DNA from: Croceivirga sp.
GTDB lineage: Bacteria; Bacteroidota; Bacteroidia; Flavobacteriales; Flavobacteriaceae
DNA: 64,000 bases
Assembly (NCBI GenBank): GCA_028281025.1
Contig: JANQKR010000037.1
Span: 62,001-126,000, forward strand
Reading direction: 5' to 3'
The translations under genes were made by a program, and so were the position numbers. The notes under the pieces are model-generated. The model did no database searches and was not told the DNA's origin. It saw nothing but the letters and a program-made list of their open reading frames with translations. Shown here piece after piece: positions 51,014-63,501 of this stretch (within the stretch, counting starts at the first letter, position 1; each line of letters opens with the position of its first letter).

Positions 51014-51087
51014 GGTCGCGTAGCTCAGCTGGATAGAGCATCTGCCTTCTAAGCAGACGGTCGAAGGTTCGAATCCTTCCGCGATCA
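51014..51087 (+). tRNA. tRNA-Arg (TCT anticodon)
   Basis: A 74-nt cloverleaf without encoded CCA. Acceptor stem GGTCGCG/CGCGATC with one G-U pair, D arm GCTC...GAGC, anticodon arm TCTGC-CTTCTAA-GCAGA with anticodon TCT, variable loop, and T arm GAAGG-TTCGAAT-CCTTC. The discriminator base is A (51087). Its 3' part is duplicated at 51243 and 55392, marking it as an integration site. Confidence 0.95.
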
Positions 51088-51169
51088 CGACACTCAAAAA
51101 ACCACACAAGAATTGTGTGGTTTTGTGTTTTGCGCAGCGTTGAAGGCCACTGCTTTCATAAGCGAAGGA
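51072..51169 (+). repeat. Direct repeat copy 1: tRNA 3' end plus downstream terminator
   Basis: 98 bp beginning AATCCTTCCGCGATCACGA inside the tRNA and ending at AGCGAAGGA. It is repeated 171 bp downstream with about three mismatches (51243-51340). It spans the tRNA terminator. Confidence 0.9.
51098..51124 (+). terminator. tRNA-Arg terminator
   Basis: Stem AAAACCACACAA / TTGTGTGGTTTT with a GAA loop, ending in T-rich sequence just after the tRNA. An identical hairpin occurs in the second repeat copy at 51269-51295. Confidence 0.85.
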
Positions 51170-51242
51170 AAACGCAAAAACCCGGAGCGGGGCTTTGTGG
51201 TTTTTTATTTGCTACATTGAGCGCACAAGGAAGGACGTAGTC

Positions 51243-51340
51243 AATCCTTCCGCGATCACGACATTCAAAAAACCACACAAGAATTGTGTGGTTTTGTGTT
51301 TTGCGCAACGTTGAAGGCCACTGCTTTCATGAGCGAAGGA
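51243..51340 (+). repeat. Direct repeat copy 2: displaced tRNA 3' end and terminator
   Basis: Near-identical 98-bp copy of 51072-51169, starting with the last 16 nt of tRNA-Arg plus CGA. The segment between the copies (51170-51242) holds only a small hairpin-like AAACCC...GGGG sequence. It is the mark of an earlier insertion at the tRNA, or a tandem duplication. Confidence 0.9.
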
Positions 51341-51351
51341 AGACACAAAAG

Positions 51352-51461
51352 ACCTCTCCGCAGTATCCGCCGAAGGCTGACAGGGTCGTACTGCAACTGC
51401 ATAACCGTTTCAAAAGCTTTGAAAATGATAGGGCGAAGCAGCTAAGCTACTTCGCAGCGGG
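51352..51461 (+). repeat. Structured ~110-bp repeat, copy A
   Basis: Starts ACCTCTCCGCAGTATCCGCC and ends TTCGCAGCGGG. Two nested hairpins: GCAGTA...TACTGC enclosing a CCGCC/GGC stem, and GCGAAG...CTTCGC. About 97 of 110 bases match copy B (55421). It borders the left side of the MBL-patatin island. An apparent 107-codon frame through it (51286-51609) is a by-product of the repeat. Confidence 0.85.
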
Positions 51462-51465
51462 CGGA

Positions 51466-51609
51466 ATGGAGCAATATGGCATGGAGTTGATAAAGAAAAA
51501 AGAGCGGCAAATCATTCCGTCTTTAGATTTGGATTCAATCGATTTTAAAAACATTGATTTGAATGAAAAAAGGAAAACCAGGGATAAAGATTTGGACCTT
51601 GAGCTTTAA
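51466..51609 (+). CDS. Short open frame, possible gene remnant (47 codons)
   Basis: From ATG 51466 the frame reads MEQYGMELIKKKERQIIPSL, then DLDSIDFKNIDLNEKRKTRD and KDLDLEL. It is rich in K, D and E and not recognisable. It begins right after repeat copy A and could be the tail of a lost gene or chance. Confidence 0.25.
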   Translation: MEQYGMELIKKKERQIIPSLDLDSIDFKNIDLNEKRKTRDKDLDLEL

Positions 51610-51765
51610 CTACCTTTTAGAGTTTTTTCTACTTTGTAATGAGTGATTTAAAATTGATTTAATTCATCAATTAGTAAAAATCATTAACTTTAAAAAGTTC
51701 CCTTTTATCTATCCCCCTTAAGTTTCAATCAAGTCTCGTCTTTGAGGCTCAAATAAATCTTCATT

Positions 51766-53397
51766 ATGGAATTGATTAGAGGAAATGATTATTACGTTAA
51801 GTACAAAAGTGTTGTACTTCGCGCTGAACCCGATGGGCGTTCAGAACCTAAAAACCATTTAATATATGGTGATTGGACACGGTTTAGAGGGAATACCGAT
51901 GGGGATTGGGCTCAAATATTTTCCAGAGGAAATACGGGTTGGGTTCCAAAAAAATCATTGCAAGAAGAACGTGTATTAGAAATCAATTTTGTTGACATAG
52001 GAATTGGTGATGGTTGTCATATCGTGACTCCAGATGACCAAATTATTCTCATTGATGCCGGTAAAACCGATAATATGTCACGCTTTCTTAATTGGCGTTA
52101 CAATTTACGATCTAGAAATGTTGTTGGTGTCGAAGGTGTTGAAGATGGCGATAATAATGTCAAACCTCCGATGGAAATAGATTATGTCGTTTTATCACAT
52201 CCCGATCAAGATCATTACTATGGTTTTAAGCCGCTTTTTGAAAATAAAAAACTAAGCTACAAAAAAGTCTATCATAATGGGATTGTTGAAGTTCCAAAAG
52301 ATACCGCCAATGAAGAGCCTGATTTAGATTATCCATGGGATTTAGGAGGCTTCATTACCAAAAAGGGTGTAGAATACTTGTGGGATACTATTGAATCAGA
52401 TTCTGAGATGAAATCAATTATTAGAAGATTTCCACGCACAACAAAGAAGTATTTGTCCACATTACGACCTCTTTTGGAAAACAATCCTAATGTTGAGTTT
52501 AAGGGTTTGAACCACACGCACGAATTTCTTGATGATTTTGATTTGTCCAATGATATATCAATTCAAATACTTGGACCGGTTACTGACAAAATAGAAAGAA
52601 ACGGAGTGTTGAAAAATTGTTTGAAGATGATAGGGGATGAGGGTGAGACAAAAAACGGACATTCGGTCGTCTTGAAACTCAAATACAATTTGCTCAATGT
52701 TTTTCTTGGAGGTGATTTGAATACGGAGTCCGAAGATCATTTATTACATTTCTATGCCAAGACAGAATTGGAAGTTTCCAAATTGGAAAAGGAAATTACG
52801 AAGCTTAACAAACTTGGAAATACAATAACGAATGACGAAAAACAGGAGTTGTCTGAATTGAAAAGTGATCTTAATGCCATCATAGCAAAGGCACGTCGAT
52901 TTTTCCAAGTGGATATAGCTAAAGCCTGTCATCATGGAAGTCATCATTTTTCAGAGACTTTCCTTAAATGTCTAAACACGATTGTAACAGTCGTATCCAG
53001 TGGTGACGGGGATAGTTATGCACATCCTCGTCCCGATGCACTTGGGGCTTTTGGAAAGTACGGAAGAGGGGAAAGGCCTTTAATCTTTAGTACAGAAATC
53101 GGGCGAAGTACAAATGAGTTCACATATATCAAAGAGTATTTTGATGAAATCCTAGACTTTCAAAAAAGGATTGCTGAGGCGAGTCCTTCGGATAAGAGTA
53201 AGATTGAGCAAGAGCTAGAAGAACGAAGAGACAGTAACGTAGCCACCTATGGCATGATTACATTGCGAACAAATGGAAAAAAGGTATATATCGCCCAAAA
53301 ATTGGAAGCTCCGCGTTCTAAAGCCAGTAAATGGGATATCCATGAGTTGGAATTTAACCCGAAAAGAAATGAATTCGAATATATCGAAAAGACTTAA
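51766..53397 (+). CDS. SH3-like + ComEC-type metallo-beta-lactamase-fold hydrolase
   Basis: 543 residues. Residues ~1-68 resemble a bacterial SH3 domain (VLRAEPDGRSEPKNHLI to GNTGWVPKKSL). From ~70 it is a metallo-beta-lactamase fold like the C-terminal domain of ComEC/Rec2: EINFVDIGIGDGCHIVTPDD, the metal motif SHPDQDH (H145, D147, D149, H150), Asp317 in FLGGDLN, and H389/H390 in KACHHGSHHF. Between these lie a ~130-residue insertion and a charged coiled-coil stretch (~330-375). There is no signal peptide, so it is cytoplasmic; it may cut nucleic acid or a nucleotide. The next gene, 17 bp away, is the patatin-like lipase. AT-richer by eye than the surrounding genes. Confidence 0.8.
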   Translation: MELIRGNDYYVKYKSVVLRAEPDGRSEPKNHLIYGDWTRFRGNTDGDWAQIFSRGNTGWVPKKSLQEERVLEINFVDIGIGDGCHIVTPDDQIILIDAGKTDNMSRFLNWRYNLRSRNVVGVEGVEDGDNNVKPPMEIDYVVLSHPDQDHYYGFKPLFENKKLSYKKVYHNGIVEVPKDTANEEPDLDYPWDLGGFITKKGVEYLWDTIESDSEMKSIIRRFPRTTKKYLSTLRPLLENNPNVEFKGLNHTHEFLDDFDLSNDISIQILGPVTDKIERNGVLKNCLKMIGDEGETKNGHSVVLKLKYNLLNVFLGGDLNTESEDHLLHFYAKTELEVSKLEKEITKLNKLGNTITNDEKQELSELKSDLNAIIAKARRFFQVDIAKACHHGSHHFSETFLKCLNTIVTVVSSGDGDSYAHPRPDALGAFGKYGRGERPLIFSTEIGRSTNEFTYIKEYFDEILDFQKRIAEASPSDKSKIEQELEERRDSNVATYGMITLRTNGKKVYIAQKLEAPRSKASKWDIHELEFNPKRNEFEYIEKT

Positions 53398-53414
53398 AAA
53401 CTGGTTTACCACAT

Positions 53415-55148
53415 ATGAAGAAAGAAGAAATTACTGTCGCAATTCCTAAAAACCCTTTAGGCCGTATTGCGATTTGTATGTCAGGAGGAGGATATAGAGC
53501 TGCTGTTTTTCAATTAGGTTTGTTGTCCTATCTTCATCGTCTAAAGCTAGGTGAAAAAAATTTACTTGAAAATGTAAAAGCAATTTCAACGGTATCTGGT
53601 GGAACATTTACTGGGGTGACTTACGCAAGTCAATTACGACAAGGCAAATCTTTCAAAGAGATTTATGTTGGTCTGATTGATTGGTTGTTAAAAACAGACT
53701 TGGTGAAGTTAGGTCTTACAAAGGTCAGCAATGATGGTGAGTGGAAATATCAGTATAAAAATCGCAATCTTATTAATGCTTTTGCCGAATTGTATGATTC
53801 AACACTAACTAAAGGTGCACAGTTAGGCTTGTTCGAAAACCTTGAGGAAGCAACTCACCTAGAATTTGTCTGTTTTAATTCCACTGAGTTCAATACAGGT
53901 CGTCGATTTCGTTTTCAAATGGCAAAGGGGCAAAACTATGTTGGTAGTGGTGGTACCAACATTAAATATGACATATATAGTTTAACCAGATTAAGTGATG
54001 TCATTGCAGCGTCTTCTGCTTTCTCTGGGGGCTTTGAGCCGATTTCAATGCCCAATGACTTCTTTGATTTAACAGAGGAACAAATAAAATATTTTAAAGA
54101 ACATTCGGGCTACGAAGGTTTGCCTATTGGGTTGATGGATGGCGGAATCTATGACAATCAAGGAATCTCTGCCATTCTTGATTATCAGGACAATAAAGGA
54201 ATTGAGGATTTTGATTTGGTTTTAATCAGTGATGTATCATCGCCTTATATGGACGCTTTTAGGTTTTCAAAGGAAAATCAAGGGGATGGTAGGGAAAAGA
54301 CCATCAATGATTGGAAAGATTCTCTGATTATATGGTGTGAATATATTTTTGCCGGAATCTTGACAATGACGTTATTCGGTTTTGTACTGGTAATTGCGAG
54401 CGGCCTTCAAGGTTCTACTGCTCTGGGAATTGGAATAAGTATAAGTGTCTTTGGATTGCTTTTGTTCGCGCTTTTTGATTTAGTAAGGAGGAGGTATGAT
54501 AAACTTAAGAATAAAATAGAGACGACTTTGAAAAAGGTTATCGAACCCTTTTATTTCAAGCGGTTAAAATCATTAAATATAGGTGATATAAAATTAAAGC
54601 GCTTAGAGACTTTAATCCTTGACCGCTTGAACTCTCTAAAACTATTGCTGCCAACCATATTTTTAAAACAGATAAGAAGACTTCATTATGACAGAATTTA
54701 TGAAGAAGATGCCTATGTATATCGGCGGTTGAGTTGTCTTGTAAAAGAACTCACACCAATAGATTTTGATAAGAAAAAGGAAGATGACTATGATATAGTA
54801 AAAGAGCGGTTGGTTGAGTTTTCTGGAGAGACCTACGAGGATATTATTGGTGAAAATCTTAAGGAGTATGTAGAAGCAGCGGCTCGTTTTGGTACCACAC
54901 TTTGGTTTACTGAAAGCAACAAGCTCGAAGAAGTATTAGAATCACTGCTTGTAAGTGGTCAGAGTACATGTTGTCAAAATTTACTGATATATCTTGATAA
55001 GCTTATTTATACTGAGGGCAATGGTTTTTCCGAACTGGACGCCGATTTGCAAACAATGTATAGACGGGCACATGAATTGGCTCGTGATGATTGGGCACTA
55101 TTCAAGAATAATCCTAAATTCCTCCATGAAGAGTTATTATCTTCATAA
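53415..55148 (+). CDS. Patatin-like phospholipase with two membrane segments
   Basis: 577 residues. The patatin domain (~15-290) has oxyanion loop MSGGGYRAAVFQLG (G24-R28), the catalytic Ser61 in AISTVSGGTFTG (T-x-S-x-G, as in many bacterial members) and the catalytic Asp242 in LMDGGIYDNQG. Then two hydrophobic helices (~310-330, IFAGILTMTLFGFVLVIASG; ~335-357, LGIGISISVFGLLLFALFDL) and a helical, charged C-terminal region of ~215 residues with no recognised domain. It would attack membrane phospholipids from the inner face. Patatins serve as membrane-destroying effectors in several anti-phage systems (for example CapV in CBASS); here the partner is an MBL protein instead of a nucleotide cyclase. 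Confidence 0.85.
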   Translation: MKKEEITVAIPKNPLGRIAICMSGGGYRAAVFQLGLLSYLHRLKLGEKNLLENVKAISTVSGGTFTGVTYASQLRQGKSFKEIYVGLIDWLLKTDLVKLGLTKVSNDGEWKYQYKNRNLINAFAELYDSTLTKGAQLGLFENLEEATHLEFVCFNSTEFNTGRRFRFQMAKGQNYVGSGGTNIKYDIYSLTRLSDVIAASSAFSGGFEPISMPNDFFDLTEEQIKYFKEHSGYEGLPIGLMDGGIYDNQGISAILDYQDNKGIEDFDLVLISDVSSPYMDAFRFSKENQGDGREKTINDWKDSLIIWCEYIFAGILTMTLFGFVLVIASGLQGSTALGIGISISVFGLLLFALFDLVRRRYDKLKNKIETTLKKVIEPFYFKRLKSLNIGDIKLKRLETLILDRLNSLKLLLPTIFLKQIRRLHYDRIYEEDAYVYRRLSCLVKELTPIDFDKKKEDDYDIVKERLVEFSGETYEDIIGENLKEYVEAAARFGTTLWFTESNKLEEVLESLLVSGQSTCCQNLLIYLDKLIYTEGNGFSELDADLQTMYRRAHELARDDWALFKNNPKFLHEELLSS

Positions 55149-55189
55149 GTGCGTGTACTTCTAAAATTGTTCCTTGCCATAGTGTTGGC

Positions 55190-55377
55190 ATGAAACCAAC
55201 AAGTTTAGACTATTCAATTTCTGAAATTAAACTGACCTACTCGCGAAAGGTCAAAGCGGCGGATATACCAGAGGTTACCAATTCAGATTTGGCCTATCGT
55301 CTCTTTCGGGCCAATTGGAATGATATGACCATCAATCTTTTTGAAGAGTTTAAAATCTTGCTTCTAAGCAGACGTTC
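55190..55377 (+). pseudogene. Truncated RadC-like JAB-domain gene
   Basis: From ATG 55190: LDYSISEIKLTYSRKVKAAD, then IPEVTNSDLAYRLFRANWND, then INLFEEFKILLLSR. This is the N-terminal part of the RadC-like JAB proteins common on Bacteroidetes mobile elements, which continue ILLLNRANKVLG and carry the HxHPSG metalloprotease motif. Here the frame runs after LLLSR into tRNA-like and repeat sequence, so the catalytic part is lost. The break falls exactly on the tRNA-Arg-like CTTCTAAGCAGACG. Confidence 0.65.
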
Positions 55378-55423
55378 GAGTTCCCGCAGAAAATCCTTCC
55401 GCGATCACGATACTCAAAAAACC
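55361..55423 (+). repeat. tRNA-Arg 3'-end copy (attR-like)
   Basis: CTTCTAAGCAGACG (55361-55374) equals the tRNA anticodon arm (51046-51059). AATCCTTCCGCGATCACGA (55392-55410) equals 51072-51090, and the match extends through ACTCAAAAAACC. The middle is rearranged. It forms the right boundary of a ~4.3-kb island whose left boundary is the tRNA itself. Confidence 0.8.
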
Positions 55424-55530
55424 TCTCCGCAGTATCCGCCAAAGGCGGACAGTGTTCTACTACTGCGGCATAACCGTTTCAAAAGTTTTGAGCATGATAG
55501 GGCGAAGCAGCCAAGCTACTTCGCAGCGGG
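55421..55530 (+). repeat. Structured ~110-bp repeat, copy B
   Basis: Same length and layout as copy A. The first hairpin is better preserved here (TCCGCC-AAA-GGCGGA inside GCAGTA...TACTGC), and the second is GCGAAG...CTTCGC. It directly abuts the attR-like tRNA copy on the right side of the island. Confidence 0.85.
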
Positions 55531-55653
55531 TTTTTCAAATGCCTCCGACTCGGGTACAATTTCAGTGGTCAATGTTGTGATTACCGTTGTTTTGGGCGTT
55601 ATCATCGAATTATTTTTCAATTATATTTAGCGTAGGAATAGAAACTTACTTCA

Positions 55654-61210: not shown

Positions 61211-61272
61211 CCATAACTGTTTCAAAAGTTTTACTGTTGATAGGGCGAAGCAGCCAAGCTAGTTCGCAGCGG
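61211..61272 (+). repeat. Structured repeat, copy C (3' half only)
   Basis: CATAACTGTTTCAAAAGTTT, then AGGGCGAAGCAGCCAAGCTA and GTTCGCAGCGG. It matches the second half of copies A and B; the first hairpin is missing. The stem reads GCGAA...TTCGC with one changed base. It lies left of the C10 peptidase pair. Confidence 0.75.
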
Positions 61273-63212: not shown

Positions 63213-63398
63213 CAAAATTGTCTATACCAAAGAGGGTGTCAAAATCATTTTTAGAAGTCAAATAAAAATTTGGCGGTCTTTGTAAATAAGGACAAACCTT
63301 GCGGGTTAGGACTTACTAGCGATGTTTTACTACATCATTTTAGTGCTGCTTTTATAAGTATGTATTATTGGTAAAGAAGAATTCCTGGGTTTTTCCCG
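63213..63398. other. Intergenic, no gene seen
   Basis: AT-rich spacer after the lipoprotein gene with no recognisable gene; it leads into repeat copy D. Confidence 0.4.
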
Positions 63399-63501
63399 CT
63401 CCGCAGTACCCGCAAAAGGCGGACTGGGTACTGGGAAGGTATAACCGTTTTAAAAGTTTTGATAATGATGGGACAAAGCTGCTAAGCTACTTTGCAGTGG
63501 G
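63399..63501 (+). repeat. Structured repeat, copy D
   Basis: CTCCGCAGTACCCGCAAAAG at the start and CTTTGCAGTGGG at the end. The hairpins are preserved with changed bases: CAGTAC...GTACTG enclosing CCGC/GCGG, and CAAAG...CTTTG where copies A and B have CGAAG...CTTCG. It is the most diverged copy and lies right of the C10 pair. Confidence 0.75.

Follow-up and report, generated by a model that had tools for sequence, protein, structure and literature searches.

ComEC contains a metallo-beta-lactamase (MBL) domain that acts as a Mn2+-dependent nuclease (PMC8579336). In the portions of Tuck et al. (2025; PMC12799240) drawn on here, modular, horizontally moving ComEC-type MBLs form pro-nuclease/protease pairs in Avs, Lamassu, Hachiman, DRT and canu systems, and the gated MBL nucleases carry two active-site insertions and have a partner protease. 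A specialised MBL likewise stands beside a partner gene in the 6a operons, which join an E2-E1-JAB protein to an MBL and among which a Gluconobacter locus is listed (Iyer et al., 2006; PMC1779556, in the sections used). In CBASS, a cyclic nucleotide activates CapV, an effector of the patatin type (excerpts of PMC10097602).

The locus described here lies in the window, the whole 64,000-nucleotide stretch of a Croceivirga sp. contig that was analysed, and consists of a ComEC-type MBL gene followed on the same strand by a patatin-like lipase gene, with 17 bases between the MBL stop and the patatin start (Table 1). The two open reading frames and their spacing are as the sequence-only reading had given them, and its judgement by eye that they are AT-rich agrees with GC contents of 0.374 (MBL) and 0.366 (patatin) against 0.42 for the window. 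At third codon positions (GC3) the pair is closely matched, at 0.318 and 0.315, compared with 0.42–0.53 in four flanking genes. Since the genes are so closely spaced and share their GC3, they probably entered a tRNA-Arg hotspot jointly, as a single accessory cassette. Between the tRNA-Arg gene and an araC-type gene they are the sole ORFs of more than 150 aa; two further ORFs of more than 100 aa (107 and 146 aa) have no Pfam family above cut-off. No integrase and no CD-NTase or other cyclase were seen among the ORFs of this interval, nor does it contain a sensor gene, a protease gene or an E2/E1/JAB gene.

Table 1. Features of the MBL-patatin island and its borders (window positions).
Feature	Position	Strand	Remarks
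tRNA-Arg, anticodon TCT, insertion hotspot	51014..51088	+	ARAGORN
Second copy of tRNA 3′ end and downstream sequence, att-like remnant	51236..51274	.	repeat family D4
Dispersed repeat of ~110 bp, left copy	51343..51461	+	two hairpin-like stretches (by eye)
ComEC-type MBL gene	51766..53397	+	543 aa, predicted metal-dependent phosphodiesterase/DNase
MBL motif II SHPDQDH, residues 144–150	52195..52215	+	
MBL motif CHHGSHH, residues 388–394	52927..52947	+	
Patatin-like lipase gene	53415..55148	+	577 aa, S61/D242 dyad, hydrophobic region
Patatin hydrophobic region, residues ~303–359	54321..54491	+	Kyte-Doolittle windows >1.6
Right partial copy: tRNA-Arg 3′ half and downstream sequence, att-like remnant	55355..55423	.	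repeat families D4, D5
Dispersed repeat of ~110 bp, right copy	55412..55530	+	left copy 87% to right

The 3′ end of the tRNA, with the sequence downstream of it, is present in three copies (about 51065–51103, 51236–51274 and 55385–55423); the right partial copy of the tRNA-Arg 3′ half (55355–55423) matches at 80% across query bases 1–64. Two sister genomes (G004 and G002) carry different genes between the same tRNA and the araC-type gene. Like the att-like copies on both sides, this speaks for joint acquisition, and the earlier description of the pair as standing alone on a tRNA-borne island is borne out. The flanking repeats of ~110 bp were considered as att sites of the element and set aside, as other copies lie elsewhere in the Croceivirga genome and its sister genomes; the tRNA 3′-end copies are the better candidates.

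The sequence-only reading pointed to no described system made of these two genes, and no named system was matched. The MBL protein scores far below every NCBIfam cut-off, including those for full-length ComEC/Rec2 (36.9 bits vs. 190.05), Avs1a (29.7 vs. 420) and 6A-MBL (27.1 vs. 220), and no PADLOC or NCBIfam model matches the patatin at E values up to 1. Compared with the pairs of Avs, Lamassu, Hachiman, DRT and canu, as described in the parts of PMC12799240 used here, the window has a patatin in the protease's place and no sensor; the neighbouring protease that accompanies the gated pro-nucleases Avs1a, HamM and CanC has no counterpart in its interval. Although a patatin serine lipase is shared with CapV-type CBASS, the window lacks a visible cyclase, and its patatin carries a hydrophobic region together with an extended C-terminal part shared with its own family. 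The MBL protein shares the HxDxDH, GD, HHGS and HP motifs with the C-terminal nuclease domain of ComEC/Rec2, but it is stand-alone, with a weak SH3b-like N-terminus and without a channel domain.

These shared motifs, together with similarity to ComEC, place the protein among the ComEC-type MBL hydrolases. Its motifs SHPDQDH (residue 144), KNGHS (296), GGDLN (315), CHHGSHH (388) and HPRPD (420) are intact, and H145, D147, D149, H150, N297, D317, H389, H390 and H420 are invariant across 40 aligned MBLs (window included), in agreement with the complete metal motif set reported earlier. The MBL half of the earlier label "SH3-like/MBL" thus holds, whereas the SH3-like half is a weak call because SH3_3 reaches 18.8 bits at the N-terminus against a cut-off of 27. 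Pfam Lactamase_B itself is slightly below its cut-off (21.9 vs. 22.7 bits), there is weak similarity to the LmuA, RTasMBL and Avs1a profiles, and the PDB sequence matches are ComEC MBL domains only. Judged by its family, the protein is most likely a soluble enzyme acting as a Mn2+-dependent phosphodiesterase/DNase. Relative to a ComEC chain it has two long insertions, from motif II to KNGHS (a profile gap of 119 positions vs. 60 residues) and from GGD to HHGS (44 positions vs. 8 residues).

The downstream protein belongs to the patatin family (PF01734, 50.5 bits vs. a gathering cut-off of 27.7). Its Ser61 and Asp242, pointed out in the sequence-only reading, are invariant among 12 aligned patatins (window included), as is GGGYR. 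In its Kyte-Doolittle profile, windows above 1.6 begin at residues 303–315 and 333–341, with two isolated ones between, a pattern that fits the two membrane segments proposed before. From family and hydrophobicity, the protein is inferred to be a membrane-anchored lipase with an intact Ser-Asp dyad. No export signal was noticed by eye in either protein, and neither has a nucleotide-binding family above cut-off in Pfam or NCBIfam.

Conserved adjacency of exactly these two families was not found. Among 103 loci with an MBL of the window's family, only two (L128 and L129) show a patatin no more than two genes away under a first patatin profile, the L128 patatin being split over two ORFs and counted as within that distance; a second profile adds L192 (Pfam, 87.8 bits), giving three of 103 and leaving 100 without. 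L147 has a further, weak patatin match four genes from the MBL. This count follows removal of five duplicates (L044–L047 and L050), with further duplicates possible; L178 has no recognised MBL ORF, contig ends truncate some loci, and from the genome scan, which gave 334 related places, the best 80 were used. No recurrent partner family was seen beside window-type MBLs across the 103 loci, and a Runella locus (MBL 35.5% identical), weighed as another instance of the pair, was rejected since the neighbour was not recognised, by eye, as a patatin. The patatin is present in 2 of 49 MBL-bearing genomes, drawn from 50 of the best 80 loci, and in 14 of 394 Bacteroidia other than the Croceivirga genome itself, a similar rate, although this background is not matched to the MBL-bearing set because the latter spans several phyla. 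Among 397 genomes of the family, the MBL occurs in 28, the patatin in 23 and both in three (the window's included), where ~1.6 would be expected; the two counts come from separate searches of apparently the same sample. As MBLs of the window's family mostly stand alone and their co-occurrence with the patatin is like background, the idea that precisely these families make up a conserved two-gene system is rejected.

Seen from the patatin, the picture involves MBLs of other subfamilies. ComEC-type MBLs lie within three genes at 4 of 71 patatin loci and are absent at 67 (G975:C1138 was left out, and L334 was included since its genome has the MBL). Counted by ORF, MBLs make up 6 of 390 patatin neighbours and 1 of 1549 controls (Fisher p=3.7e-4), a value that is optimistic because ORFs of one operon were counted separately and that depends on a loose MBL expression ([HS] in place of H) widened after L245 had been seen. 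With a stricter motif the excess has p=0.007, likewise optimistic, and among direct neighbours alone the strict motif gives 1 of 135 (p=0.15, not significant). L245 and L292, from two families, have patatins that are 48% identical and MBLs of ~300 aa that are 37% identical, with the gene order swapped. Shared descent of the adjacency was considered and rejected: on a 38-row patatin tree, which does not include L292 or L290, the three MBL-adjacent patatins do not cluster, and the label needs three changes, as in shuffles. A wider recurrent MBL-patatin association, with gene orders shuffled and the patatin family near MBLs above the control rate, is partly supported by these sequence comparisons. 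In one family, the patatin genes seem, judging from neighbour sizes, to be conserved on the chromosome.

Plasmid relatives place both kinds of enzyme beside E2/E1/JAB, Hachiman, CBASS-cyclase or protease genes. The Gluconobacter locus listed as 6a has a patatin beside its MBL, which is of the L245/L292 type (40.5% identity) and accompanied by the E2-E1-JAB protein; on a Mesorhizobium plasmid, the MBL beside the patatin is more distant (22.9%), and E2 and E1 genes accompany it. Of 11 records examined among 30 that matched the L290 MBL (a second plasmid search had 3 of 19 examined, and some records are near relatives of each other), five have a patatin within three genes, and in ten the gene immediately upstream of the MBL encodes an HExxH protein or S8 peptidase. 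Two of the five, both rhizobial, show the run patatin, HExxH protein, MBL, HamA, HamB, and HamA and HamB genes were confirmed in L342 and L344. On one plasmid, a gene annotated as a CBASS cyclase lies near a patatin-HExxH-MBL run. The MBLs of L337, L342 and L344 are missed by the regular expression and were identified by tblastn together with Pfam, NCBIfam or the record annotation. Patatins located near E1-type, cyclase or HExxH-MBL genes match the window's patatin at 26–30% in their catalytic part. For both genes, the neighbours of many relatives look ordinary by eye. A phage- or virus-borne module was also considered and rejected, as viral-contig and phage collections gave no confirmed match.

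The reading tentatively preferred here, at somewhat less than even probability, is that the two genes form a co-acquired nuclease and lipase effector pair that has no visible sensor and represents a variant form of modular MBL immunity. The MBL would damage nucleic acid and the patatin membrane lipid, in a two-hit attack during anti-phage conflict; as no sensor gene is present, the trigger would probably come from another locus or from the damage itself. The pair would then be a sporadic recombination of two mobile modules from the wider recurrent association. That two solitary accessory genes came independently to lie side by side in a tRNA hotspot, with no joint function, is nearly as likely. 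The varied neighbours of the MBL, its lack of a nearby patatin in 100 or 101 of 103 loci, the lack of a nearby MBL at most patatin loci, the background-like rate in MBL-bearing genomes, the three family genomes with both genes and the hotspot's other cargo in sister genomes all fit such a coincidence, but the short spacing and matched GC3 point to one acquisition, and the excess of MBLs near this patatin family also speaks against it. The suggestion that the pair is a defence module stands in part: the same kinds of enzyme are sometimes found in or near defence-type loci, while the exact pair is rarely adjacent. Because these enzymes recur together elsewhere, sometimes beside antiviral genes, the pair may be a minimal defence unit.

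Other accounts of the pair are much less probable. An accessory metabolic role outside defence, such as the scavenging of extracellular DNA and lipids, is improbable: it would suit the ordinary-looking neighbourhoods, but not the lack of a noticeable export signal or the defence-type neighbours at L113, L097, L245 and several plasmids. Slightly less credence is given to the MBL being a gated pro-nuclease, as in Avs1a, HamM and CanC, with the patatin or its membrane products replacing the activating protease. Its two long insertions may correspond to those of the known gated nucleases with their partner proteases (PMC12799240, sections used), and peptidase-type genes and patatins do gather around relatives of the L290 MBL. 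Yet the second insertion is short or missing in the relatives L049, L050 and L051, so gating does not hold for the family as a whole, and the window's interval has no protease. Patatins are not known as proteases, which also weighs against this account. The proposal of the sequence-only reading, in which the lipase is licensed by an MBL that senses or processes a nucleotide, is the least probable of those weighed. The activation of CapV by a cyclic nucleotide (PMC10097602, in part) offers a precedent, and the annotated cyclase near one plasmid run would accord with it; against it, no cyclase was seen among the interval ORFs, neither protein contains a recognised nucleotide-binding family, and the closest solved relatives of the MBL by sequence are ComEC MBL domains rather than nucleotide sensors.

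On a broader and rather doubtful reading, ComEC-type MBL nucleases and membrane patatins may form a recurrent, rearrangeable partnership that parallels the nuclease-protease pairs of Avs, Hachiman and canu and attaches to E2/E1/JAB, Hachiman, CBASS, dynamin and Septu-type loci, with the window as a stripped-down, sensor-less version mounting a two-hit suicide response. If this is false, the locus is a caution that two genes of matched composition, 17 bp apart on a tRNA island, may nonetheless be unrelated cargo. If it is true, a lipase would join the known partners of ComEC-type MBL nucleases, which are proteases in the parts of PMC12799240 used here. Candidates beyond the window would be L245, L292, L290 and the rhizobial loci with HamA and HamB, and bacterial immune effectors would be traded as enzyme pairs and not just as single domains.

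The two ORFs described in the sequence-only reading are borne out, lying on the same strand with 17 bases between them (Table), and both genes have intact catalytic motifs. The metallo-beta-lactamase (MBL) carries the complete metal motif set, with key residues invariant across 40 aligned sequences, that of the window included. Its Lactamase_B match is just short of the Pfam cut-off, and the PDB sequences matched by its family profile are ComEC MBL domains only (E <=0.1). The ComEC MBL domain is described as a Mn2+-dependent phosphodiesterase and nuclease requiring the motif II aspartates (PMC8579336). The Ser-Asp dyad proposed for the patatin likewise shows no variation across 12 aligned sequences. 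Its residues 303-359 make up a hydrophobic region compatible with the two membrane segments suggested for it, and the patatin family profile gave zero matches to PDB sequences.

Table. Features of the tRNA-Arg island and its gene pair
Feature	Position	Strand	Description or basis
tRNA-Arg(TCT)	51014-51088		insertion hotspot
tRNA-Arg 3'-end copies with downstream sequence	~51236-51274, ~55385-55423		repeat comparison
Additional piece of tRNA-Arg 3' half	55355-55379		repeat comparison
ComEC-type MBL ORF	51766-53397	+	543 aa; weak SH3b-like N-terminus and MBL domain
Patatin-domain ORF	53415-55148	+	577 aa; patatin 50.5 bits against a cut-off of 27.7 (Pfam)

Two sister genomes share the tRNA-Arg and the araC-type gene (96% protein identity), with different genes between them. 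GC3 is 0.318 in the MBL gene and 0.315 in the patatin gene, against 0.42-0.53 in four flanking genes. The tRNA 3'-end copies, the other genes in the sister genomes and the matched low GC3 are taken as the signature of a single acquisition event for the two genes. No integrase was seen among the ORFs of the tRNA-Arg to araC interval, whose two remaining ORFs above 100 aa match nothing above cut-off in Pfam. The interval (window 51014-55650; loci L218 and L220) is an insertion hotspot, its genes differing among the window's genome and the two sister genomes. A repeat of ~110 bp, in which two hairpin-like stretches were recognised by eye, is clustered in these three genomes (window 51343-51461, 55412-55530, 61212-61272 and 63396-63501; L217-L224), and one cluster (L223) has in its vicinity an ORF matching Y1_Tnp (IS200-like).

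In 71 patatin neighbourhoods, all from patatin searches, a ComEC-type MBL ORF is found within three genes at four loci (L113, L245, L290, L292). Counted per ORF within three genes, such MBLs make up 6/390 neighbours versus 1/1549 controls (p=3.7e-4), or 4/390 neighbours under a stricter motif (p=0.007); direct neighbours only give 3/135 (p=0.002) and 1/135 (p=0.15), respectively. The association of the two classes is recurrent yet uncommon. At L245 (3391-9894), a 129-aa ORF, a patatin, MBLs of 302 and 368 aa and a dynamin-type GTPase with DUF4365 occupy a single strand with short gaps. The order at L292 is a 378-aa MBL, a 296-aa MBL and a patatin; the patatins of L245 and L292 are 48% identical and their ~300-aa MBLs 37%. 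Among 131 genomes of L292's family, its ~300-aa MBL (E <=1e-12) occurs in its own genome only, adjoining the patatin. L290 comprises an HExxH protein, an MBL and, after 437 bp, a patatin with 41% identity to that of the window; at L291 a related MBL and the patatin are on one strand, seven ORFs apart. Upstream of the L113 patatin lie an S8 peptidase and an MBL that matches the LmuA profile at 157 bits; PtuA/PtuB-type genes are found downstream of it. Elsewhere, the genes after a patatin are of ThsB-type TIR and caspase type (L097:7572-10660), near relatives of the window's patatin directly follow an Amidohydro_2-type gene (L243, L244; Pfam on L243 only), and a 765-aa pentapeptide-repeat protein comes after a distant MBL relative in a genome of the same genus (L041:5857-9801).

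Relatives of both MBL types are found on plasmids. For the ~300-aa type, 3 of 19 matched records were examined, and in two of them patatin is the next gene, with E2/E1/JAB genes alongside: a Gluconobacter plasmid (MBL 40.5% identical; one E2-E1-JAB protein) and a Mesorhizobium plasmid (22.9%; separate genes, JAB below its cut-off). The third, from Arsenophonus, has no patatin next to the MBL. The 2006 description of 6a operons reports an MBL nearly always adjoining an E2-E1-JAB protein and lists Gluconobacter oxydans (PMC1779556). For L290-type MBLs, 11 of 30 matched records were examined, 5 of them with a patatin within three genes. The gene just upstream encodes an HExxH protein in 7/7 loci checked for the motif (an arrangement seen at L338-L344 and L290) and an S8 serine peptidase in 3 of the 11 (L346, L347, L348), with a protein of unassigned type in the remaining record. 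In two of the five patatin-bearing loci (L342, L344) the order is patatin, HExxH protein, MBL, HamA, HamB, with HamA and HamB forming a Hachiman core, and this may be a nuclease-metalloprotease pair joined to Hachiman; upstream of one of the two, a CBASS cyclase is also annotated. In another of the five, the downstream genes are an AAA ATPase and HNH pair.

The pair had been put forward as a candidate undescribed module, and a check against PADLOC agrees, with no model for the patatin and weak matches only for the MBL; in NCBIfam, the patatin has no model and the MBL is far under every cut-off. No paper combining patatin with MBL in an anti-phage or defence context was found in a search outside supplements and most subscription papers, nor, outside most subscription papers, one using the name '6A-MBL'. 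The words 'patatin' and 'phospholipase' are absent from the main text, supplements aside, of the pro-nuclease paper (PMC12799240).

Conserved adjacency of the exact pair is not borne out. The MBL scan covered one genome per species (84,980 species), and the best 80 of 334 related places (Bacteroidota, Pseudomonadota and further phyla), with loci from other searches and minus five duplicates, gave 103 MBL loci. A first patatin profile places a patatin within two genes at only two of these, convergent with overlapping 3' ends in Psychroserpens (L129) and upstream, split over two ORFs, in Parvularcula (L128). A third locus, L192, is added by a second profile, its patatin standing two genes from the MBL and scoring 87.8 bits against Pfam Patatin; this profile also gives a weak match four genes from the MBL at L147. 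No recurring partner family was seen in the 103 loci, which include the best 80 of 334. Among 397 family genomes, apparently an identical sample for both searches, MBL relatives (E <=1e-8) occur in 28 and those of the patatin in 23, both counts including the window's own genome; three genomes (G000, G083, G397) have both, with ~1.6 expected. Patatin is present in 2/49 MBL-bearing genomes versus 14/394 non-own Bacteroidia.

The MBL would act as a nuclease and the patatin as a lipase; the two genes may be co-transcribed and may form a two-hit effector pair. In Avs and Hachiman, it is a partner protease that opens the MBL pro-nuclease; the canu nuclease CanC is activated by a caspase (PMC12799240). 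The window's MBL has long insertions at two comparable places, but the second is not conserved within its own family, and the tRNA-Arg to araC interval holds no protease. The earlier interpretation of a two-gene defence or toxin module is partly supported: the enzyme classes are recurrently associated, but the exact pair is not conserved. A cooperating effector pair is a tentative reading, somewhat short of an even chance, and accidental co-location of the two genes is only slightly less likely. The window's MBL family (L115-L194, the best 80 of 334) is widespread across several phyla and mostly solitary, with conserved metal motifs, and the window-type MBL is a candidate, as an uncharacterised single gene, in its own right.
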